The position numbers and the translations under genes were made by a program. Shown one piece after another: positions 3,946 to 31,792 of a stretch of DNA of 36,795 nucleotides. The notes beneath the pieces are model-generated. The model ran no database searches. It was not told the origin of the DNA and saw only the letters and a program-made list of their open reading frames with translations. The DNA is from Lachnospiraceae bacterium. GTDB lineage: Bacteria > Bacillota > Clostridia > Lachnospirales > Lachnospiraceae. The stretch is taken from positions 1-36,795 of the forward strand of contig JAFQMS010000016.1 in the NCBI GenBank assembly GCA_017396145.1, given 5' to 3'. The number at the start of each line of letters is the position of its first letter. Positions within the stretch are counted from its first letter, which is position 1.

Positions 3946-4296
3946 ATGGGAATTATCAAGAATATAAAGCATATGGTAAACGAACTAGAAGCAGAAGAGA
4001 TAGAAAGAGAGAGTTATCAAAAGAAGAAATTAGAAAAACTTAATTCTTTAAGCAATCAAATCATAATAAAAAACGACAGCAACAGAATGGATAAGGATGA
4101 ACTTGAAGCATTTTTGCAAAACAACGAAATAACCATACCAGAAGGTGCATTCATCAACAAGGAAGGCAATATAGAATATGAAATATTAGAACGTTGTATT
4201 TATCCACCCAAGATTATCTGTCCTGACTGTGGTGGAATCACATTAGAAGGTCTGGATTTTTGTGATAAATGTGGTGGTGAGATTAATATTTTTTAA
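3946..4296 (+). CDS. Small zinc-ribbon protein with coiled-coil N-terminus
   Basis: A 116-residue protein of unknown function. Residues ~10-60 are highly charged (EAEEIERESYQKKKLEKL) and likely helical or coiled coil. The C-terminus carries one zinc ribbon, CPDCGG...FCDKCGG (~94-113). GGAG lies 10 nt before the ATG and a terminator follows directly at 4297-4330, so it is a stand-alone gene. It is one of the few plus-strand genes in this half of the window. It shares only the ribbon style with the protein at 1321-1794. Confidence 0.8.
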   Translation: MGIIKNIKHMVNELEAEEIERESYQKKKLEKLNSLSNQIIIKNDSNRMDKDELEAFLQNNEITIPEGAFINKEGNIEYEILERCIYPPKIICPDCGGITLEGLDFCDKCGGEINIF

Positions 4297-4330
4297 AACC
4301 CTCTTTCTTAGGATACTAAGCAGAGGGTTT
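4297..4330 (+). terminator. Terminator after the small zinc-ribbon gene
   Basis: AACCCTCT pairs with AGAGGGTT and an inner CTTAG pairs with CTAAG. The stem begins directly after the stop codon and is followed by TTATCTTC. Confidence 0.75.
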
Positions 4331-4361
4331 ATCTTCAACAAAACTTAATAATATACAATTC

Positions 4362-4396
4362 GAAAGCCCCCGTTCTCCTAGGTTACGGGGGCTTTC
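4362..4396 (-). terminator. Probable flagellin terminator
   Basis: A very GC-rich stem, GAAAGCCCCCGT with ACGGGGGCTTTC, 80 nt past the flagellin stop. The tail on the minus strand (GAATTGTATATTATT) is only moderately T-rich. The stem could serve either strand. Confidence 0.65.
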
Positions 4397-4475
4397 TCAT
4401 ATAATAATACTTAATGTAAAATTAGCTTTTGTATTAAGGTTATTACTCTTTTACTACCTGTAACTTACTCTACAA

Positions 4476-5291
4476 TTACTGGAGTAATGAAAGTACACCC
4501 TGGTTAGACTGGTTAGCCTGTGCAAGCATAGACTGTGCAGCCTGCTGGATAATACTGTTCTTTGAGTATGTAACCATTTCTTCAGCCATGTCAACGTCAC
4601 GAATTCTTGATTCAGCTGCCTGTAAGTTCTCAGCTGCTGTATCAACATTAGCGATTGTGTGCTCAAGTCTGTTCTGGATAGCACCGATGTTACCTCTTTC
4701 AGTTGAAACACTCTCAATTGCTGAGTTGATAGTTTCGATTGCAGTATTGTATGTATCCTGATCATCAGCGTCAAGACCAAGTGAATTAACACTTAATCCA
4801 GTAGCACTCATATCACCTATTGAAATGCTAATTGTCTGATCCTTGTTAGCACCTACATGTAACTTCTTATCAAAGCTACCGTCTAATAACTTCATTGTAT
4901 TGAACTCTGTATCAGTAGAAATTCTATCAATTTCTGCTACTAACTGATCCATCTCAGTGTTGATAGCTGCTCTATCTACTGAAGTCTCAGTACCATTAGC
5001 ACCCTGAACTGCTAACTGTCTCATTCTCTGAAGAATAGCGTGAGTCTCGTTAAGAGCACCCTCAGCTGTCTGAGCTAATGAGATACCATCCTGTGCATTT
5101 GTAGAACCCTGATTAAGACCACGAATCTGAGCTCTCATCTTCTCTGAAATTGAAAGTCCTGCTGCATCATCTGCTGCACGATTAATTCTGTAGCCTGATG
5201 ATAACTTCTCTGTTGATTTTGACTGTGATGTTACTACTGAACCTAACATTCTGTTGGCATTTGCTGCCTGCATATTGTGCTGTATTATCAT
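4476..5291 (-). CDS. fliC: Flagellin
   Basis: Structural subunit of the flagellar filament. The 271-residue protein is short: conserved D0/D1 helices at both ends and almost no variable D2/D3 insert. The N-terminus MIIQHNMQAANANRMLGSVV is followed by KLSSGYRINRAADDAAGLSI and LQRMRQLAVQGANGT. The latter is the D1 stretch that in other flagellins is seen by TLR5. The C-terminus has ESRIRDVDMAEEMVTYSK and ends QGVLSLLQ. It has no signal peptide, as expected for export by the flagellar apparatus. It has a sigma-D-type promoter (5429-5455) and a long leader with CsrA-like hairpins. The neighbouring receiver-domain genes upstream are on the same strand. Confidence 0.97.
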   Translation of the reverse strand: MIIQHNMQAANANRMLGSVVTSQSKSTEKLSSGYRINRAADDAAGLSISEKMRAQIRGLNQGSTNAQDGISLAQTAEGALNETHAILQRMRQLAVQGANGTETSVDRAAINTEMDQLVAEIDRISTDTEFNTMKLLDGSFDKKLHVGANKDQTISISIGDMSATGLSVNSLGLDADDQDTYNTAIETINSAIESVSTERGNIGAIQNRLEHTIANVDTAAENLQAAESRIRDVDMAEEMVTYSKNSIIQQAAQSMLAQANQSNQGVLSLLQ

Positions 5292-5299
5292 AATAATTA

Positions 5300-5353
5300 C
5301 CTCCTTGGTTTTAATGTCTCAAATCCTTTTGAGTACATGTGGCGGTTTCCCGC
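5300..5353 (-). promoter_or_regulatory. Flagellin leader with CsrA-type hairpins and SD site
   Basis: In transcript order there are three GGA-containing sites. First is GCGG-GAAA-CCGC (5342-5353), a tetraloop hairpin with GGA at the stem-loop junction. Second is CTCAAA-AGGA-TTTGAG (5318-5333), a perfect 6-bp stem with AGGA as the loop. Third is the Shine-Dalgarno AAGGAGG (5300-5306). A GGA in a hairpin loop plus a second at the SD is the arrangement that CsrA binds in the Bacillus subtilis hag leader. That CsrA binds here is inferred; csrA and fliW are not in the window. Confidence 0.6.
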
Positions 5354-5428
5354 GTTAATTGTTATTTTTTCTTAACATCCGTTGCACCTAGGATTGCTTG
5401 AATGTTATTTTTGTTTCTTACACCTTAT

Positions 5429-5455
5429 ATATCGGAGCTTAATTTATATACTTAA
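5429..5455 (-). promoter_or_regulatory. Sigma-D (sigma-28) type flagellin promoter
   Basis: On the minus strand TTAA (5452-5455), a 15-nt spacer, then TCCGATAT (5429-5436). This fits the TAAA-N15-GCCGATAT consensus for the motility sigma factor. It implies a leader of about 130 nt before the flagellin start. It lies directly after the stop codon of the upstream receiver gene. Confidence 0.85.
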
Positions 5456-5474
5456 CCCCTAAAATTAAATTTTT

Positions 5475-5822
5475 TTATTTTTTTATAAATTTTTTTATTT
5501 CCTTTGATATTACCCCATCTTCACATGGTAACTGAATTACCAAATCATTATTAGTTACATGTCCTATGTTTTCTTTTGTCAGATAAACAACTGGGAGATT
5601 CTTATACTTAAGATTACTTCTTATCTTCCTCACCATATCTTCCGGACAATTATTAGATGAAAGACCATCTCCCATTACTAGAAGTTCAATATCTTTTTGC
5701 CTTAACACCTTAAGCATCCATTCTTCTGTTCTTGCCGGATATATTACAAATTCCTTATCTAATTCATATTGCACTTTCAAAATATTGGATTTCGATGAAT
5801 CCGCCACAATAATCTGTTGCAT
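5475..5822 (-). CDS. Stand-alone degenerate receiver-domain protein
   Basis: This 115-residue protein is the size of a single CheY-like domain. It begins MQQIIVADSS, so one of the two usual acidic residues is present (D8) and the other is Ala7. The phospho-acceptor position is filled by D52 (LLVMGDG). Thr82 (PVVYLTKEN) matches the conserved Thr/Ser. The conserved Lys of the K-P pair is Leu98 (IQLPCED). It has no output domain. It probably works through protein contact and may be poorly phosphorylated. It is 38 nt after the receiver-HPt gene, in the operon led by the clpX paralogue. No terminator separates it from the flagellin promoter. The family resemblance is fairly clear, the role unknown. 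Confidence 0.75.
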   Translation of the reverse strand: MQQIIVADSSKSNILKVQYELDKEFVIYPARTEEWMLKVLRQKDIELLVMGDGLSSNNCPEDMVRKIRSNLKYKNLPVVYLTKENIGHVTNNDLVIQLPCEDGVISKEIKKFIKK

Positions 5823-5860
5823 AAAATCCCCATACCTTTCCTTGTCATGTATATCACATT

Positions 5861-6961
5861 TTAATTAACCAAACACTCTTTTAACAATCTCATTGCTCTT
5901 TCATATTCCATATTCTCTATATACTCCACCACCGACCTTACAGCGCTTTCCCAGTCTGTTGGTAACTGACATTCTAAAAGTTTTACCAATTCCTTAACCG
6001 CTGCATTAGGCATAATATTATCCAAATAACTAAGAGCTACGAGTAATTCATTTTTGCACTCATGTTCAGATATCGGTAATTTCTTTTTAGGTCTGTCATT
6101 CCATGTATTTTCTTTTAAACATACTTCTATATGAGAAACTATTGAATTAATATTCTCATATATATTAGGAAATCTTTCCTCTATAAAATCATAATTACCC
6201 GCAAGACCTGCTATCTGATGAACCTTCGCTAACTCATACAATGTTGATGCCCCAATCTCTTTGGCAAACATCTTTATATATTTCATCTGCTCAATATAGT
6301 TAGCATAGTCACCTTTATTAATGTATTCACACAGAATATCTGCTTTTTGCATAGCCTGATGATATACAATCACCAATTTTTGTAGCAATGCTTTTCTCTC
6401 ATATCCACAACTTTTATAAAGGTATGGCATATCTAACCCCGGAATCTCTATCTTATCTTTTTTATTCTTACACTCTGTTTTTTCCTTTACCTCATTCTTC
6501 TTTATCTTTTTATTATCAGCAATCCACTTACGCAACATTCTGTCAAGATAATAGACTTCCATTGGTTTAACAATAAAATCATCTATAACATCACCAAGAA
6601 CTACTCTCTTATTACCAGTAGCGTTTTTTCCTATAACTACTATTATAGGTACCGAACTAACATACTTTTCATAAGCAGGATTTACCAAGGAAATATTTCT
6701 TATACTTTGGGCCACCTCAAGAAAATCCTTCTTATGATTGTTATAATCTACAAATATAACATCAAATCTTTCCTCAATTACATTCTTAACATATTCACTA
6801 TCTGAAGTCATAGTTGTAACATTAATGTCATAAAGTTTAATTAAATCTCTTTGCAAAGAATAATCCTTATCGCAATCGTCAACTATAAGTGCCTTTACCT
6901 TCTTTGTCTTAAATGTTCCATTGTCAACATAATCTCTGATAGTTGAATCAAAATAGTTCAT
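5861..6961 (-). CDS. Receiver domain plus degenerate HPt-like domain
   Basis: The 366-residue protein has an N-terminal receiver domain (~20-145): acid pair D28-D29 (LIVDDC), acceptor D72 (DVIFVDYN) and K132-P133 (DFIVKPME). The usual Thr/Ser is Ile110. A Lys-rich linker (~150-172) leads to a helical region (~180-270) that aligns with HPt domains around residues 226-246. There Lys227 (QMKYIKMFAKEIGA) occupies the place of the phosphorylated His. The C-terminal ~70 residues are helical (YLDNIMPNAAVKELVKLLEC). It starts immediately after the clpX-paralogue stop (TAA then ATG), so translation is probably coupled. No kinase or DNA-binding domain is present. A regulatory or adaptor role is inferred. 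Confidence 0.8.
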   Translation of the reverse strand: MNYFDSTIRDYVDNGTFKTKKVKALIVDDCDKDYSLQRDLIKLYDINVTTMTSDSEYVKNVIEERFDVIFVDYNNHKKDFLEVAQSIRNISLVNPAYEKYVSSVPIIVVIGKNATGNKRVVLGDVIDDFIVKPMEVYYLDRMLRKWIADNKKIKKNEVKEKTECKNKKDKIEIPGLDMPYLYKSCGYERKALLQKLVIVYHQAMQKADILCEYINKGDYANYIEQMKYIKMFAKEIGASTLYELAKVHQIAGLAGNYDFIEERFPNIYENINSIVSHIEVCLKENTWNDRPKKKLPISEHECKNELLVALSYLDNIMPNAAVKELVKLLECQLPTDWESAVRSVVEYIENMEYERAMRLLKECLVN

Positions 6962-8374
6962 TTAGCATCCCTGCCTCATCTCAATTTTAGGTATACCTTT
7001 ATTATCAATATAATCTTTTGTTATTGTTACTGTTCCAATGTTATCATCTTTAGGAATCTCATACATAATATCCAACATAAACTCTTCTATAATTGCTCTT
7101 AACGCTCTTGCACCTGTATCCTTTTTTATGGCTCTTTCAGCGATGGCTTCTAATGCCTCATCTTCAAATACAAGTTTAACCTCATCCATCTCAAGAAGCT
7201 TCTGATACTGCTTAAGTATTGCATTTTTAGGTTCTTTAAGAACGCTTACCAACATATCCTTAGTCATTCCCTTAAGTGCGAAAACTATAGGAAGTCTTCC
7301 TAAAAATTCTGGTATCATTCCAAACTCTCTTAAGTCTTCTGTCTGTACCTTATCAAATATATTCTCATCTTTGTCAAACTTATCTTTAAGATCCGCACCA
7401 AAACCTATACTGCTGCTCTTAGTCAATCTGTTTTTAATTATTTTTGCAAGATCAGGAAATGCTCCACCGCAAATAAATAGAATATTCTTGGTATTAATAG
7501 TTGTCATTGGCACCATAGCATTTTTAGATGTGGCACCTACAGGCACTTCTATGTCCGCTCCTTCTAAAAGTTTTAACATTCCTTGTTGAACGGATTCTCC
7601 ACTTACATCACGGTTATTAACATTCTTCTTTTTTGCTATCTTGTCGATTTCATCTATATATATTATGCCTCTTTCTGCCCTGTCCACATCATTATCCGCT
7701 GCAGCTAGTAGTTTAGACACAACACTTTCTATATCATCACCTATATATCCTGCTTCCGTAAGAGAAGTTGCATCTGTAATAGCCAAAGGTACATTAAGAA
7801 GTTTTGCAAGAGTCTTAACTATATATGTTTTTCCACACCCTGTAGGCCCAAGCATTAGCATATTGGATTTTTCAATTTCTATATCATCTTCGCCCTTCAT
7901 AGATGCTGCTACCCTTTTATAATGATTATAAACTGCTACTGATATTACTTTCTTTGCATGCTCCTGACCGATAACATAGTCATCTATTTTACTTTTAATG
8001 ATATGTGGAAGGGGTATATTCTTTATATCAAATATTTCTTCATCTGTTTTCTTTTCTTTATTATCTTCTTTAGGTTTAGCTTGCTTTTTCTTAAGTTTTT
8101 GTCTGTTAGGTATATTACCCATATCTTCCATAAAATCACTACCCATGCCCATAAACGGCATTCCCATCATGTCAAACCCACTCATGCTATTCATTGAATC
8201 AAATGTTTTTTGCATACAGTCGTTACAAATGCATATGTTATTAGGGATGTGCATCATCTTCCCTGCGATACGTTCACTTCTTCTGCAGATATAACAAATA
8301 TCTTCTCTATCATCCTTATCTTTCTCATTATCATTATTAATCTTATCTATATCTTTACTATCCTTTTCTTCCAT
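6962..8374 (-). CDS. clpX: ClpX paralogue (AAA+ unfoldase) with altered RKH loop
   Basis: A 470-residue ClpX-type ATPase. It has an N-terminal zinc domain (C27, C30, C50, C53), a long Met-rich and then Lys-rich linker (~60-115) not seen in ordinary ClpX, and the AAA+ core from ~118. Walker A GPTGCGKT is at 176-183, Walker B IIYIDEID at ~237-244, pore loop GYIGDD at ~209. The IGF loop (SIGFG, ~323), which docks on ClpP, is kept, as is sensor-2 GARALR. In the position of the RKH loop (needed for ssrA-tag recognition in E. coli ClpX) an ungapped match gives SKN. It is longer than typical ClpX and is not next to tig or clpP, so it is probably a second copy with different substrates. It leads an operon with two receiver-domain genes. 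Confidence 0.88.
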   Translation of the reverse strand: MEEKDSKDIDKINNDNEKDKDDREDICYICRRSERIAGKMMHIPNNICICNDCMQKTFDSMNSMSGFDMMGMPFMGMGSDFMEDMGNIPNRQKLKKKQAKPKEDNKEKKTDEEIFDIKNIPLPHIIKSKIDDYVIGQEHAKKVISVAVYNHYKRVAASMKGEDDIEIEKSNMLMLGPTGCGKTYIVKTLAKLLNVPLAITDATSLTEAGYIGDDIESVVSKLLAAADNDVDRAERGIIYIDEIDKIAKKKNVNNRDVSGESVQQGMLKLLEGADIEVPVGATSKNAMVPMTTINTKNILFICGGAFPDLAKIIKNRLTKSSSIGFGADLKDKFDKDENIFDKVQTEDLREFGMIPEFLGRLPIVFALKGMTKDMLVSVLKEPKNAILKQYQKLLEMDEVKLVFEDEALEAIAERAIKKDTGARALRAIIEEFMLDIMYEIPKDDNIGTVTITKDYIDNKGIPKIEMRQGC

Positions 8375-8411
8375 ATCTTCACTCTTTCTCCATCAATCTA
8401 GTAGTATTATA

Positions 8412-8440
8412 ATTATACCTTTTTACCATAATAATAACAA
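8412..8440 (-). promoter_or_regulatory. Promoter of the clpX-paralogue operon
   Basis: TTGTTA (8435-8440), 17-nt spacer, TATAAT (8412-8417) on the minus strand. The -35 box falls in the T-rich tail of the htrA terminator. Confidence 0.65.
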
Positions 8441-8467
8441 GATGCCACAGACAATTTCTGTGGCATC
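8441..8467 (-). terminator. Terminator of htrA
   Basis: A perfect 11-bp stem (GATGCCACAGA / TCTGTGGCATC) with a 5-nt loop, followed on the minus strand by TTGTTATTATT. It begins seven bases past the htrA stop. Confidence 0.85.
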
Positions 8468-8473
8468 CCATAA

Positions 8474-9937
8474 TTATTTATTATTCTCATCGTCAGTCAC
8501 TTGATTAGAAAAACCTTCTGGTCTTTTTCCAAGTGTAAGTTCTTTTTTCATCTCATTATACTTTCCATCCTCAAATCTTTCAAATGTAAGCGTAATCTTT
8601 TCTCCTGCTCTATAATCTCCAACCTTATCAATCAACTGTTCATTAGATGTAACCTCTATGTCGTTAATCTTTGTTATAATATCTCCCTTTAACATTCCCT
8701 GCTCAGCAGCCGGTCCATCCTCTACAATCTCCGTAAACATTACTCCCGCAGGGCAATTATATAGTTGGCTTATCTCCTTACTTACAGTACTGCAAACCAC
8801 TCCAAGATAACCTTTTTCCTCATCAGGAATATGCTCTTTATTCATAAGTTCTTGAATTATAGGAAGAACTTTTGATACTGGAATGGCATACCCCATTCCC
8901 TCAACATCTTCACTGGCAAGTTTTGCAGAATTAATCCCAATAACTTCTCCTTTGCCATTCAAAAGAGCGCCTCCTGAATTACCCGGATTGATTGCTGCAT
9001 CTGTCTGAATTGCTGTATAAGTAGTTTGGTCTATTTTTACCTCTCTGCTAAGTGCACTGATACATCCCTTTGTCACTGACTGTCCATATCCTAAAGCATT
9101 ACCTATGGCAATGGCCAATTCTCCTGTTCTTAGTTTACTCGAATCTCCAATAACAGCTATTTTAATTGCTTTTACTGTTTCATCCTTCAAATCCTTTTTG
9201 CTGACAGAACATACAGCCAAGTCTACAGAAGCATCTGTTCCCTTAACCGTAGCCTCATAAGATTCTCCATCAGCAAATGTAATCTGAACTTTATCTGTGT
9301 CCTCAACCACATGATTGTTAGTCACTATCAACAATTCATCATCATTTTCACCAATAATTATTCCAGAACCACTACTGTCATATTCACGTTGATCATAGTA
9401 CCCTGGCCAAATGGTGATATTATGAGTACTAGTACATGTTATTGATACTACTGATGGCATAGCCTCTTCTACAATATCTGCTATATCTGATTTTGTCTCA
9501 ACTGTATTATTAGATACCACTGTTGTCGCAATGGTAGTATTAGCGCCAGTTTTATCACCTTGTTCTACTTTAGTTTGTTCTTTATCGTTATTATCATTAA
9601 AATGCTTGTCAACAAAGTAAAAACCTGCTCCTGCTGATACTCCAAATAATACCGCGCTTAAAACTACCGCCACAACCTTGCCCAAAAATCTCCCTTTTTT
9701 CTTCTTAGCAGGTTCCATGTTATCCTTTCTCTCATCACTTACAATCTTATTATTCTCTGTGTTCTCATAAGTATAATATTTAGGAGACTCAAACATCTCC
9801 TCTACTCTTTCTTCCTCTTTTTCTTCTATTCTGTTTTCTTCTGTCATTGCCCTATCCTCCTCTATGCTTGTATTTTCAGTATCTTCTCCCATCTCTTCAT
9901 TATTGTTTTCTATATTGTTTTCTTTATTATCTATCAT
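8474..9937 (-). CDS. htrA: HtrA/DegP-family membrane serine protease with PDZ domain
   Basis: An envelope quality-control protease of 487 residues. The N-terminal ~80 residues are very acidic and presumably cytoplasmic. Then KKKGRF and one membrane helix (~88-108) anchor it. The trypsin-like domain has His209 (TNNHVVED), Asp239 (ASVDLAV) and Ser321 (NPGNSGGALL). One PDZ domain follows (~395-480, GYLGVVCSTV to LTFER). The start at 9937 is supported by AAAGGAAAG upstream. A longer frame from a GTG at 10009 lacks a ribosome site and adds unlikely residues. It is divergent from the LCP gene at 10158, so both promoters lie in 9938-10157, though no single site stands out. A strong terminator follows. 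Confidence 0.93.
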   Translation of the reverse strand: MIDNKENNIENNNEEMGEDTENTSIEEDRAMTEENRIEEKEEERVEEMFESPKYYTYENTENNKIVSDERKDNMEPAKKKKGRFLGKVVAVVLSAVLFGVSAGAGFYFVDKHFNDNNDKEQTKVEQGDKTGANTTIATTVVSNNTVETKSDIADIVEEAMPSVVSITCTSTHNITIWPGYYDQREYDSSGSGIIIGENDDELLIVTNNHVVEDTDKVQITFADGESYEATVKGTDASVDLAVCSVSKKDLKDETVKAIKIAVIGDSSKLRTGELAIAIGNALGYGQSVTKGCISALSREVKIDQTTYTAIQTDAAINPGNSGGALLNGKGEVIGINSAKLASEDVEGMGYAIPVSKVLPIIQELMNKEHIPDEEKGYLGVVCSTVSKEISQLYNCPAGVMFTEIVEDGPAAEQGMLKGDIITKINDIEVTSNEQLIDKVGDYRAGEKITLTFERFEDGKYNEMKKELTLGKRPEGFSNQVTDDENNK

Positions 9938-13003: not shown

Positions 13004-14350
13004 TTAATCGCTTTCCACATTATTATCAATTACTGTATTCTCAGTTTCTATTGTATCATCAACCTCTTGTGAATTCTCATCTACTACATCGTCACTGATA
13101 GTTGGTTCTTCTGGTTGTTCTATTACTTCTTTTAGAGTTATTTCTATATATGGACCATCAATTATCTCTACCCCTTCTACATCCTCAAATTTCACTGACA
13201 CCTTTTGTGTTCCAATTATCAATTTTTCCATATCAATATTTGGCGCAAACATAGAAGCATCCAGATTCTCAACAGCATCACTCAAACCTCTAACTGTAAA
13301 GCTTAATTTCTTATCAGTTTCGTAATCTGTCATTACATCTGTTCTTAGATTTAGAAATTTAATGTCCTTAGCAGAAAATTCTATCTTTTTCTCAACAAGT
13401 TTTTCTATCTCCAAAGTAACTTCACATTCTTTATCATCAGATATAATCTTAATCTCATTTGACAGATATTTCTTCAGGTCAAATGTACCACTGTAATCAT
13501 CAACATACCCTGTAACATCTACATCTAGCACTATTTTATCAATCTTATCCAATGAAGTTTTTGTTCCGGCAATCCTTAGTTCTTTTAGTGAACATTCTTG
13601 TTGTGTAATTATATATCCATCTTCTAAATTACCTGCAATATTAATCTCCACAGGAATTGATTTAACCTTTAACGGATTAGCTGATACCGATATAGAATTT
13701 ACTCCAAATTTTATCTTATCAGATTTAATATGTGTTCCATTAACATCATATGCCTTCGGTTCTGCTATTACTCTAAATTCTTTGTTTACGTCATTGACAT
13801 ATACATCGATTCTAACCTCAGATATCTTTTTCATCACAGATTCAGGTGCTGATACATTAATACGGTTAGGTGACGCATTTATCTCATCAACACTAATATA
13901 ATAATCCTTCGCTGGCTCACCTTTTGTCTGTATCATAACCTCAAACTGTTTTGTAAGATAATTCTCAACAGATAGCATCATAGTCTGATTCTTTCCTTCA
14001 ACTATCTCTTGCTCAGAAGCATATTTTTTTGCAAGTGATACTTCTATAGGAACCGCATTAGTTATAGAATACTTTGACAAATCCGCAACTGCATAAAAGT
14101 CTGATTCAGTTAATGTATCTACAATGCTTTTTTTACCTTTAACCACAACTGTAACTTGGTCATTACTTTCTACCTCATAATACATTCCTGCTCCAGTTAT
14201 ACTCTCTCCATTGACTGTTTTTACATCAATACCTGTAATCCTTGTTGTAATGGTAGGGTCATCAACATTTAATATAACCAGCCAAATTACAAATGCAACC
14301 ATCACTGAAAGGATTTTCAGGCCCAGATTATTTGTCAGTCTTTTTCTCAT
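13004..14350 (-). CDS. cdaR: CdaR/YbbR, regulator of diadenylate cyclase
   Basis: A 448-residue membrane-anchored protein. The N-terminus MRKRLTNNLGLKILSVMVAF is followed by a single helix, and the rest is extracellular with repeated YbbR beta domains (about four, ~50-410). The tail is acidic (QPEEPTISDDVVDENSQEVD). CdaR binds CdaA and modulates c-di-AMP synthesis in Firmicutes. The reading frame overlaps the end of cdaA by 23 nt, as expected for a coupled pair. leuA follows by 17 nt, where glmM is usual. Confidence 0.92.
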   Translation of the reverse strand: MRKRLTNNLGLKILSVMVAFVIWLVILNVDDPTITTRITGIDVKTVNGESITGAGMYYEVESNDQVTVVVKGKKSIVDTLTESDFYAVADLSKYSITNAVPIEVSLAKKYASEQEIVEGKNQTMMLSVENYLTKQFEVMIQTKGEPAKDYYISVDEINASPNRINVSAPESVMKKISEVRIDVYVNDVNKEFRVIAEPKAYDVNGTHIKSDKIKFGVNSISVSANPLKVKSIPVEINIAGNLEDGYIITQQECSLKELRIAGTKTSLDKIDKIVLDVDVTGYVDDYSGTFDLKKYLSNEIKIISDDKECEVTLEIEKLVEKKIEFSAKDIKFLNLRTDVMTDYETDKKLSFTVRGLSDAVENLDASMFAPNIDMEKLIIGTQKVSVKFEDVEGVEIIDGPYIEITLKEVIEQPEEPTISDDVVDENSQEVDDTIETENTVIDNNVESD

Positions 14351-19197: not shown

Positions 19198-19659
19198 TTA
19201 TATATTAATATACACTTTCATATACTCTTGTTCATTGTAGCTCAATGGTACAACCAAGCCTTTATTAATAGTTGCATCTGCTGCTGACAATTCAGCAATC
19301 AGCCTTGGTGTTGTTATATCAATCAAAATATCCATTGAAGAAAAAATAGTTGCTGCATTACCTGCAACCATATTCCCCAATTCACTAAGCGCAGAACATG
19401 CCATCTCATCTAAAGCCTCTACGGGCATTCCACACATCATCTTACTTGCAATATCTTTAGCATTATCCGGCGATATCTCAAAGGTAACCTCTCCATTCAG
19501 TTCCCCTACCACACCAACTTTTATAGCTAAATGTCCCTGAGTCATACTATTTGCAATCTTCGGACCCACTACTTTTAGTTGAGTTTGTGCAACCATTCCT
19601 ATGACACCGACACATGCTTCTAAAAACGGATTAATCAATCTTGCGTCTAAGCCCTGCAT
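19198..19659 (-). CDS. cheX: CheX-like chemotaxis phosphatase
   Basis: A 153-residue CheC/CheX-family protein. It begins MQGLDARLINPFLEACVGVI and carries the E-x2-N signature in ALSELGNMVAGNAATIF (~91-107). In characterised CheX these residues remove the phosphate from CheY-P. Its length fits CheX rather than the two-motif CheC. It may act on chemotaxis CheY or on other receivers. It leads a probable two-gene unit with the TrmH-family gene. The other chemotaxis genes are not in the window. Confidence 0.85.
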   Translation of the reverse strand: MQGLDARLINPFLEACVGVIGMVAQTQLKVVGPKIANSMTQGHLAIKVGVVGELNGEVTFEISPDNAKDIASKMMCGMPVEALDEMACSALSELGNMVAGNAATIFSSMDILIDITTPRLIAELSAADATINKGLVVPLSYNEQEYMKVYINI

Positions 19660-28822: not shown

Positions 28823-30190
28823 TCATTCTTTAATTCTTACTTTGCTTAAATCTATTGTCATTGCCGGTCTTATTCCATTACCCTCCAGCCCTACAGCATC
28901 AGAGATAATAAGTTTACTGCAAAAACTCGGACAAACAACATATCCATTACATGCTGTTGTTTCATCAGCATCTCTAAGCCACCAATAATGATTATATACA
29001 TTATAATCATTTATTTGACATGTATACCAATTACTTTCACAGAACTGTCTTGCTAAAGTTGTAGGAACTGCATATATATCAACATTGGCAGTTTCTAGCC
29101 ATTTAAGTTCTTCCCTTGACAAAAGAAATACTTTATCTTCAGTTACCACATTACCTGTTGTAACTTTTGTAACTATTATTGCCGCTTTTTCTTTCTCACT
29201 AAAGTATCTTAAAAAACCCGCTTCAGAATTATAGCCATTATTCTTCTCAGACATAGCTTCATCACATGGAATTTGATCCTTGTAAATAACACTTTCCTTA
29301 TCTGAATTAAGCCATGTTCTGATATTTGACAACTCCCATGAATTATTACCGCGAACTAGTTTTTGAATCTCAACATCTAATTCTGCCGATTTAACATTCC
29401 AATACTCTTTACCATCATGAAGATTAAAGGCTCCTCCTTCGGCAGCATCATATGCTTTCATAGTTAGTATTTTATCCGCAACTACTATTGCCCTTTTCTT
29501 ATCTTCTGAAACTTTAATAACTCTCCATTCTATAGGTTCACTATAGTATTCACCTAAAACAATGGTGTCCCCCAGTTTTACATCTGCATATGTTTTGTCA
29601 TGACTATCGCTATACTCTTTACTACCAGTATTCTCAGATGTTTTCTGTCTGTATATTAACCCAATGCCTACAATCAGTATCGTAACAGCAACCACACCAA
29701 CCAAGACCGGTAACTTGGTTCTTTTTCGCACAGTTACATGGTCTTTGGACGTATCATCACCTTTTCCAGCATTATAGGTGTCCGAATTAATCTGTTCTTT
29801 TTTCCCTTTTGCAAGTTCCACCATAGATGCAACTATGGCGTCCCAATCTCTTTTTTCTGTACTATAAAACCACTGTGGAGTCATCAAAAAGTACTCCAAA
29901 GATTTATTTAAAACCACATCTTCTAGTTTATAAACAACTATAGGAATTCTTCTACTTACACTTCTTTCAACCTCCCTTAAAACATGTTGGGATTCATTAG
30001 CTTCATTGGATAATAACAGCAAAACAACATCACTAGAATCTATTCCATTGATAATCTCCGCTGCATATTCATATCCTGTTCTAATATTTCTAGGGGCAAT
30101 GAAACATTCATGCCCCCTGCTTTCTATTGCATTACAAAATTCATTTGCTTGTATTGAGTTAACCGATGAGTGAGAAATAAAAACTTTCAT
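28823..30190 (-). CDS. Transmembrane TIR-domain protein with DUF6273 sensor-like domain
   Basis: A 455-residue protein in three parts. The N-terminal TIR-like domain (~1-125) starts MKVFISHSSVNSIQANEFCN. It contains ECFIAPRNI, SSDVVLLLLS and HVLREVERSV, where E73 sits at the position of the catalytic or conserved Glu. A polar linker leads to one membrane helix (~160-180). The C-terminal ~250 residues match the DUF6273 pattern: LGEYYSEPIEWRVI, WELSNIRTWLN, DKVFLLSREE, WWLRDA and GNGIRPAMTI. Topology would place TIR inside and DUF6273 outside. Many bacterial TIR domains cleave NAD; whether this one does is open. It follows a 92-residue membrane protein by 18 nt, downstream of a cobalamin-riboswitch operon. 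Confidence 0.85.
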   Translation of the reverse strand: MKVFISHSSVNSIQANEFCNAIESRGHECFIAPRNIRTGYEYAAEIINGIDSSDVVLLLLSNEANESQHVLREVERSVSRRIPIVVYKLEDVVLNKSLEYFLMTPQWFYSTEKRDWDAIVASMVELAKGKKEQINSDTYNAGKGDDTSKDHVTVRKRTKLPVLVGVVAVTILIVGIGLIYRQKTSENTGSKEYSDSHDKTYADVKLGDTIVLGEYYSEPIEWRVIKVSEDKKRAIVVADKILTMKAYDAAEGGAFNLHDGKEYWNVKSAELDVEIQKLVRGNNSWELSNIRTWLNSDKESVIYKDQIPCDEAMSEKNNGYNSEAGFLRYFSEKEKAAIIVTKVTTGNVVTEDKVFLLSREELKWLETANVDIYAVPTTLARQFCESNWYTCQINDYNVYNHYWWLRDADETTACNGYVVCPSFCSKLIISDAVGLEGNGIRPAMTIDLSKVRIKE

Positions 30191-31555: not shown

Positions 31556-31755
31556 CCTGACACGCTGGTACCCCGCAGCGTATATGTCTGGTTGCTTACA
31601 TCTAGATATTTCGACTTAGTACTACTTCTAATCGTCCTTCTCAGATTAACCAATGGACCTTTCTCAAAATGTGGCTTTTGATAAGATTAGAAATACTTAT
31701 GGTACTTCACGGCGACGGGCTCGTACAGGATTTACACCTGTTTCCCTACATGTAA
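31556..31755 (-). ncRNA. Cobalamin riboswitch
   Basis: In transcript order: GTAGGGAA (31742-31749), CAGGTGTAAATCCTG, then GAGCCCGTCGCCGTG (to ~31706). This closely matches the GGGAA-GGTG-AA-TCC-CCCGCC core of cobalamin riboswitches. AAGCCAC (~31672-31678) is B12-box-like. CCAGACATATACGCTGC follows, then a strong hairpin ACGCTG/CAGCGT (31561-31582 region) with a G-rich loop that could make the kissing contact. No T-run follows, so control is probably at translation of the lipoprotein, whose AAGGAG is ~35 nt further on. Ends are approximate. Confidence 0.85.
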
Positions 31756-31763
31756 ACTACTAT

Positions 31764-31792
31764 ATTTTAACATAATGGCTATAGAAAAACAA
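31764..31792 (-). promoter_or_regulatory. Promoter of the riboswitch operon
   Basis: TTGTTT (31787-31792), 17-nt spacer, TAAAAT (31764-31769) on the minus strand. The -35 box lies in the T-tract of the plsC terminator. Confidence 0.5.

Follow-up and report, generated by a model that had tools for sequence, protein, structure and literature searches.

Does a clpX-like gene followed directly by two receiver-domain genes encode a ClpX whose substrates are chosen by those receivers, or a ClpX of wider occurrence beside which the receivers have come to lie? The question is raised by contig JAFQMS010000016.1 of a Lachnospiraceae bacterium (assembly GCA_017396145.1), the whole 36,795-nucleotide (nt) stretch of which is referred to here as the window. 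The genes concerned, with ClpX2 as a label coined in this analysis for the second ClpX, are:

6962..8374, minus strand: clpX2, 470 amino acids, a ClpX-type AAA+ unfoldase (paralogue), assigned by NCBIfam NF003745 and by its group in the tree
5861..6961, minus strand: P0002, 366 amino acids, a receiver with a pseudo-HPt and a second helical bundle, assigned by Response_reg, homologues and a model
5475..5822, minus strand: P0003, 115 amino acids, a lone pseudo-receiver, assigned by alignment, model and fold matches

The clpX2 stop codon TAA abuts the ATG of P0002 at 6962/6961 with no gap and 38 nt (5823-5860) separate P0002 from P0003, so that gene order, strand and spacing are just as an earlier note on this DNA described them. 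That note went on to propose a dedicated ClpXP variant steered by receiver-domain adaptors and perhaps connected with motility. What has been found is better described as a second, family-wide ClpX whose tag-reading loops are rebuilt than as a system made up of ClpX and receivers: on the comparisons set out below most sampled Lachnospiraceae have this paralogue, which probably shares ClpP with the other ClpX and reads other substrates, and the receivers beside it are rare and were added later.

A second ClpX in the Lachnospiraceae

Against NCBIfam NF003745, which has a cut-off of 359 bits, ClpX2 reaches 557.7 bits, and it also passes another curated ClpX model (485.0 bits, cut-off 370.75). A canonical tig-clpP-clpX cluster is located on another contig of the source genome, which bears out the description of clpX2 as encoding a paralogue; the two proteins share 52% identity across residues 107-466. 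A tree was built from 41 canonical ClpX and 35 ClpX2 (five ClpX2 rows without a start motif having been left out), and in it ClpX2 forms one side of a branch with support 100/100. Since ClpX2 also passes the curated models for ClpX, annotation would probably name both proteins 'ClpX' and hide the paralogue. No description of a second ClpX in Lachnospiraceae was found among the open-access papers searched, judged by titles and the beginnings of abstracts, and a term search of PMC3971600 returned no mention of Clp or ClpX. One member of the family has a third, more distant ClpX-like gene (G005:C9:43354-44358; 39% identity to canonical ClpX) about 6 kb from its clpX2.

ClpX2 matches at E <= 1e-118 are present in 372 of 397 sampled Lachnospiraceae genomes. 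The best canonical ClpX in a sample of the order (116 genomes) reaches 3.2e-121, and the group at E <= 1e-133, about 367 of the 397 genomes when the table is read by eye, lies beyond that value; the five genomes excluded from the smaller count have matches at 1e-118 to 1e-122. In the order sample each of the 11 Lachnospiraceae gives two ClpX matches; of the 105 other genomes 102 give one (best 9.5e-120) and three none, and ClpX2 is found in none of the 105. With canonical ClpX as the query, at least two matches are found in 21 of 23 Lachnospiraceae genomes and one in two incomplete ones. A DNA pattern of the altered RKH loop described below is found in 10 of 13 Lachnospiraceae and in 0 of 328 other genomes of a class-wide sample. 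ClpX2 is family-wide and not specific to the receiver operon; its occurrence in about 367 genomes, and the absence of such receivers from the 38 other ClpX2 loci considered below, leave the idea that it is dedicated to them unsupported.

Rebuilt loops and an extended linker

The substrate-reading loops were compared in an alignment of 40 ClpX2 (L133 left out) with 41 canonical ClpX sequences. The latter come from 49 loci, eight of which gave no frame with the search motif, and some of them are the same genome fetched twice; the ClpX2 loci were chosen by likeness to that of the window, and the 40 lean to close relatives. The segments that matter for the argument are:

7733..7750, minus strand: pore-1 loop, GYIGDD where canonical ClpX has GYVGED (V to I and E to D in 40/40)
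7592..7624, minus strand: pore-2 loop, two residues shorter than the canonical one, with Asn before RDVSGE (Thr199 in E. coli) and G replaced by S
7508..7540, minus strand: equivalent of the RKH loop, VGATSKNAMVP where canonical ClpX has PQGGRKHPHQE (H to N in 40/40, R to S, N or Q in 40/40)
8216..8296, minus strand: C4 zinc finger (C27, C30, C50, C53), with the pattern C..C...C..C in 40/40 ClpX2
8084..8101, minus strand: QKLKKK, a basic motif close to where the linker ends; canonical ClpX lacks it
7400..7408, minus strand: IGF loop (ClpP docking), kept, as judged by alignment column

Columns that differ consistently between the two groups (>=90% each way) number 32; 12 of these fall in the three channel-lining loops, the rest being distributed over the zinc finger, the linker and other parts of the motor. 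Walker B and the GAR motif are kept in all 40 ClpX2, while the presence of Walker A, by which the rows were picked, is by construction. Docking is of the IGF type throughout (IGF in 33 sequences, MGF in seven). The equivalent of the RKH loop follows the consensus (V/I)G(A/S)xxKNA(M/L)(V/T)P.

What these changes may do to substrate choice can be judged against E. coli ClpX, for which the part of PMC7652416 consulted names six degron readers, Y153, V154, T199, V202, R228 and H230; it gives a strongly raised Michaelis constant (KM) for T199A/V, R228A and H230A, and states that ssrA substrates are not degraded by human ClpX, in which positions 199 and 230 are both Leu. In all 40 ClpX2 the position of V154 is occupied by Ile, that of R228 by Ser, Asn or Gln, and that of H230 by Asn; ClpX2 does not carry the residue set of a canonical ssrA-reading ClpX. 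The reading of ssrA tags has likely been lost, a judgement that depends mainly on R228 and H230. Human and mitochondrial ClpX are altered at degron-reader positions as ClpX2 is, but by other replacements (Leu, Leu).

The zinc finger has its four cysteines in 40/40 ClpX2, as is expected of a ClpX, and its score with Pfam zf-C4_ClpX is 23.7 bits, under the cut-off of 27. Behind it lies a linker, often rich in Met and Asn, that separates it from the motor and has a median length of 78 residues (n = 39, one of the 40 being without a measured linker) against 37 in canonical ClpX; the basic motif is found in 35 of these 39 and in 0 of 41 canonical sequences. A long linker with a basic motif such as QKLKKK would set the zinc finger of ClpX2 apart from its motor.

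Set beside canonical ClpX (E. coli, Listeria; TIGR00382/NF003745), ClpX2 has the same zinc-binding cysteines, Walker A and B motifs, GAR sensor 2 and IGF-type loop, but differs in its GYIGDD pore-1 loop, in a pore-2 loop two residues shorter, in having (S/N)KNAMVP for the RKH loop, in a linker about twice as long that ends in a basic motif, and in that clpP does not adjoin its gene. With its motor and docking motifs kept and its substrate-reading loops changed, ClpX2 is a form of ClpX different from the housekeeping protein; a distinct ClpXP variant, as the earlier note supposed, survives to this extent, its dedication to the receivers does not. A new set of substrates for ClpX2 is the presumed outcome. 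Present in most members of a family dominant in the gut and with its loops rebuilt in one consistent way, the paralogue constitutes a natural experiment on substrate choice by AAA+ proteases; it also predicts that a large share of the gut microbiota uses a second degron code.

Rarity of the receiver genes

The surroundings of clpX2 were surveyed at 38 loci (L067-L095 and L134-L142; the window, RUG11200 and L133 stand outside the survey) over about 1.4 kb on each side, the downstream flank being shortened by contig ends at two of them. Receivers of the P0002/P0003 type occur in 0/38 within these flanks. Of these loci, 21 have an htrA homologue on the upstream side of clpX2; downstream, 12 have a gene for an S8 subtilase and one more has such a gene on the opposite strand. 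These neighbours hint at protein-quality-control surroundings. G001, a genome of the same genus as the source, has htrA-clpX2 followed by an opposite-strand zinc-ribbon gene and a subtilase gene, without receivers.

Searches with the receiver proteins themselves lead to one other genome. P0003 has two strong matches in the 397 family genomes, the window's own and that in RUG11200 (E 3e-22); the weaker ones have E 2e-8 or worse, and most of the 27 others aligned resemble ordinary receivers. P0002 matches 33 of 61 relatives, and among the matches listed RUG11200 alone, besides the window, exceeds 200 bits (39% identity, E 3e-71), the next best standing at E 7e-28 and most of the others lying in frames of 600 to 1900 amino acids. 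At least one possible stand-alone relative of P0002 (G005:C13, frame of 367 amino acids, 22%) is on a contig different from that of its genome's clpX2. When 84,980 species were scanned for two short peptide patterns, which can miss diverged receivers, 27 relatives came up, with RUG11200 (36%) the sole one above 29% identity. Outside the window, the searches turned up the three genes together in RUG11200 alone, a member of another genus, where a subtilase fragment intervenes.

The order in RUG11200 is clpX2, subtilase fragment, receiver-HPt, receiver, remaining subtilase. Its receiver pair is a 1,577-bp (~1.6-kb) insert within the S8 subtilase gene (L065 1711-3291), directly behind the sequence DSGID, which we take to be the catalytic Asp motif; with the insert removed the subtilase reads through and aligns smoothly with its relatives. 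The same subtilase has GTC where the copy in G001 has GTS, at what is presumably the position of the catalytic Ser, here a Cys. Inverted repeats of 12 bp mark the ends of the insert, and when the letters of the flanks were shuffled singly 2000 times no shuffle reached such a repeat; there is also a possible duplication of TA, and no transposase is found within the insert. The 12-bp repeat has four exact copies in RUG11200, two at the insert and two elsewhere, and one copy in the source genome; a mobile-element family behind it was considered and set aside, the copies being few and single and no shared flank being seen by eye at the one copy read. Near the receiver genes the window has no repeat of this kind and, by eye, no subtilase, and the source genome has one distant S8 relative (31%) elsewhere. 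RUG11200 is a metagenome-assembled genome, in which an assembly artefact is possible.

A phage or plasmid origin of the pair was likewise rejected: two short peptide patterns found no relatives in viral_contigs (the phages collection was not searched), and the two weak plasmid matches are ordinary response-regulator or hybrid-kinase proteins, with nothing in the surroundings of the one looked at.

These properties of the insert bear on the strongest competing explanation, in which the receivers are unrelated to ClpX2, a small cassette having landed downstream of it and borrowed its promoter. The explanation is a serious possibility, although we do not think it the probable one: the bounded insert in RUG11200, with its inverted repeats, possible TA duplication and clean read-through of the subtilase, and the restriction of strong matches to two of 397 genomes are what it would lead one to expect, whereas the position behind clpX2 in two genera, the apparent constraint on both genes (see below), the lack of a transposase, a repeat that is not clearly a repeated element and the absence of such a repeat from the window are not.

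ClpP docking

Among 23 Lachnospiraceae genomes, 17 have one ClpP match and two, both incomplete, have none; a dedicated second ClpP was looked for and is not found as a rule. Most genomes having a single ClpP, both ClpX proteins therefore most likely share it, and the clpX2 product would work as a second ClpXP on the common ClpP with a degron preference of its own. That ClpX2 is instead an ATP-driven chaperone that acts without ClpP is unlikely: the window contains no clpP (frames read by eye) and a second ClpP is generally lacking, but the docking tripeptide has been retained as IGF or MGF in every one of the 40 sequences.

Fold and decay of the receiver proteins

That both genes downstream of clpX2 encode receivers is confirmed, for P0002 by Pfam (Response_reg, 31.1 bits, cut-off 30.2) and for P0003, which has no Pfam match above cut-off, by its modelled fold. 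The AlphaFold2 model of P0003 (predicted local distance difference test, pLDDT, 90) gives template-modelling (TM) scores of 0.71-0.86 by query length with PDB receivers among the matches listed, so that its predicted structure has the receiver (CheY) fold. The model of P0002 comprises two helical bundles besides the receiver (pLDDT 84, predicted TM-score, pTM, 0.44), and the PDB entries that match it best are either receivers or receiver proteins with several domains. P0002 aligns with the tails of ArcB/BarA-type hybrid kinases over receiver and HPt, and often over the helical region behind them as well; its best NCBIfam matches, below cut-off, are the ArcB and BarA models. Unlike these kinases it has no kinase part, and the phosphorelay residues have suffered:

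6281..6283, minus strand: codon 227 of P0002, Lys in place of the HPt His (His in 21/21 aligned homologues)

The phospho-accepting position of the HPt, His in all 21 REC-HPt homologues, is Lys in the window and Gly in RUG11200, so that neither orthologue retains the defining residue; the switch Thr is likewise present in 21/21 homologues and in neither orthologue. The acidic trio of the P0002 receiver (D28, D29, D72) is kept in both orthologues, the Lys in the window's copy only. P0003 has G51 at the position of the phospho-Asp (Asn in RUG11200), and neither genome's copy retains the Lys or the second acidic residue; P0003 lacks the residues of a phosphorylatable receiver of the CpdR kind.

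Between the two lineages, differences at codon positions 1/2/3 amount to 0.45/0.37/0.62 and 0.43/0.38/0.63 in the receiver genes and to 0.22/0.13/0.56 in ClpX2, with synonymous change near saturation. The figures fit purifying selection on both receiver genes, weaker than that on ClpX2, and the receiver proteins appear to be neither ordinary phospho-switches nor evidently dead genes. Decayed phosphorelay parts would have come to sit behind clpX2 in two lineages and, if they act on ClpX2 at all, would most likely be phosphorylation-independent partners.

The comparison with Caulobacter CpdR, on which the earlier note drew, must be seen in this light. CpdR is called an adaptor in the part of PMC8119881 consulted, and in that of PMC8865702 it primes Caulobacter ClpXP when unphosphorylated. 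Like CpdR, P0003 is a small stand-alone receiver fold, and it adjoins a clpX gene; unlike CpdR, it has no phosphorylation site, and its linkage to clpX is seen in two genera only. That the two receivers are dedicated, phospho-regulated adaptors of the CpdR type that set the substrate choice of ClpX2 is very doubtful, and the analogy has been downgraded: zero-gap coupling of clpX2 to P0002 in the window, the recurrence of the pair downstream of clpX2 in another genus and a codon-position pattern typical of constrained genes all speak for it, but P0003 is in either genome without the Lys, the phospho-Asp and the second of its acidic residues, the HPt His is gone, and ClpX2 is widespread without receivers. 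With its acidic trio intact, the P0002 receiver could by itself still mediate such regulation. Since CpdR primes ClpXP in its unphosphorylated state, an unphosphorylatable receiver could in principle, by analogy, be a permanent adaptor; the fuller proposal built on this, a pair of ClpXP proteases that use one ClpP and differ in degron code, with cassette-borne decayed modules captured as always-on adaptors, seems to us equally doubtful.

Points against the proposed second ClpX with other substrates

Several observations count against the interpretation that we prefer, in which a second ClpX shares ClpP, reads other substrates and acquired its receivers late and rarely. Two ClpP matches are present in four of the 23 Lachnospiraceae genomes. 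The degron readers Y153 and V202 are kept in ClpX2, and V154I is conservative. The fate of T199 hinges on where the gap is placed: MAFFT leaves the position empty in 40/40 ClpX2, and HMMER aligns the residue before RDVSGE with the canonical Thr. That residue is Ser in 17 ClpX2, Asn in 11, Gln in nine, Thr in one and Ala in one (one unmatched), compared with Thr in 41/41 canonical sequences, and in E. coli the increase in KM from T199S is limited to about 4-fold (PMC7652416, in the part consulted). The tree does not fix where the split between ClpX and ClpX2 is rooted, and the source genome is 58.5% complete. Constrained receivers beside clpX2 in two genera are, finally, also to be expected of a functional partnership.

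Transcription signals and other features of the window

The signals that delimit the clpX2 genes and the flagellin gene behind them (4476-5291) are:

8412..8440, minus strand: sigma-70-like promoter TTGTTA-17-TATAAT before clpX2, in a region where the density of such sites is not above chance
8437..8471, minus strand: strong intrinsic terminator of the upstream htrA, with a 15-pair stem, adjoining the clpX2 promoter
5429..5455, minus strand: sigma-28-like promoter TTAA-16-CCGATAT before the flagellin gene, by what we take to be the sigma-28 consensus

No minus-strand terminator was found within the clpX2-P0002-P0003 span, in agreement with the earlier description. The promoter given in the earlier note is present, but the density of promoter-like sites is that of chance (23 found in 4000-9000, 21.3 +/- 4.7 expected). 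Six more such sites on the minus strand fall within the span of the genes, including one (5887-5858) a little ahead of P0003. The sigma-28-like pattern has two matches in the window against 0.15 expected, the other (13669-13693, plus strand) sitting within a minus-strand gene. Flagellin, with a sigma-28-like promoter of its own, is therefore probably a separate unit, and the suggested link of the clpX2 genes to motility, ClpX2 being family-wide, is unsupported. The flagellin leader of about 180 nt (window 5292-5474) has AAGGA/AGGAGG sites, which presumably could bind CsrA.

Elsewhere, a cobalamin riboswitch (31584-31768, minus strand; Rfam RF00174, 37.7 bits) lies upstream of two genes, which we take to encode a lipoprotein-like protein and a probable ECF-type transport component. 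The product of 28823-30190 (minus strand) begins, as far as we can judge, like a TIR domain and continues with a transmembrane-like segment, and a small protein encoded at 19198-19659 (minus strand) seems to us to resemble the CheX chemotaxis phosphatase.

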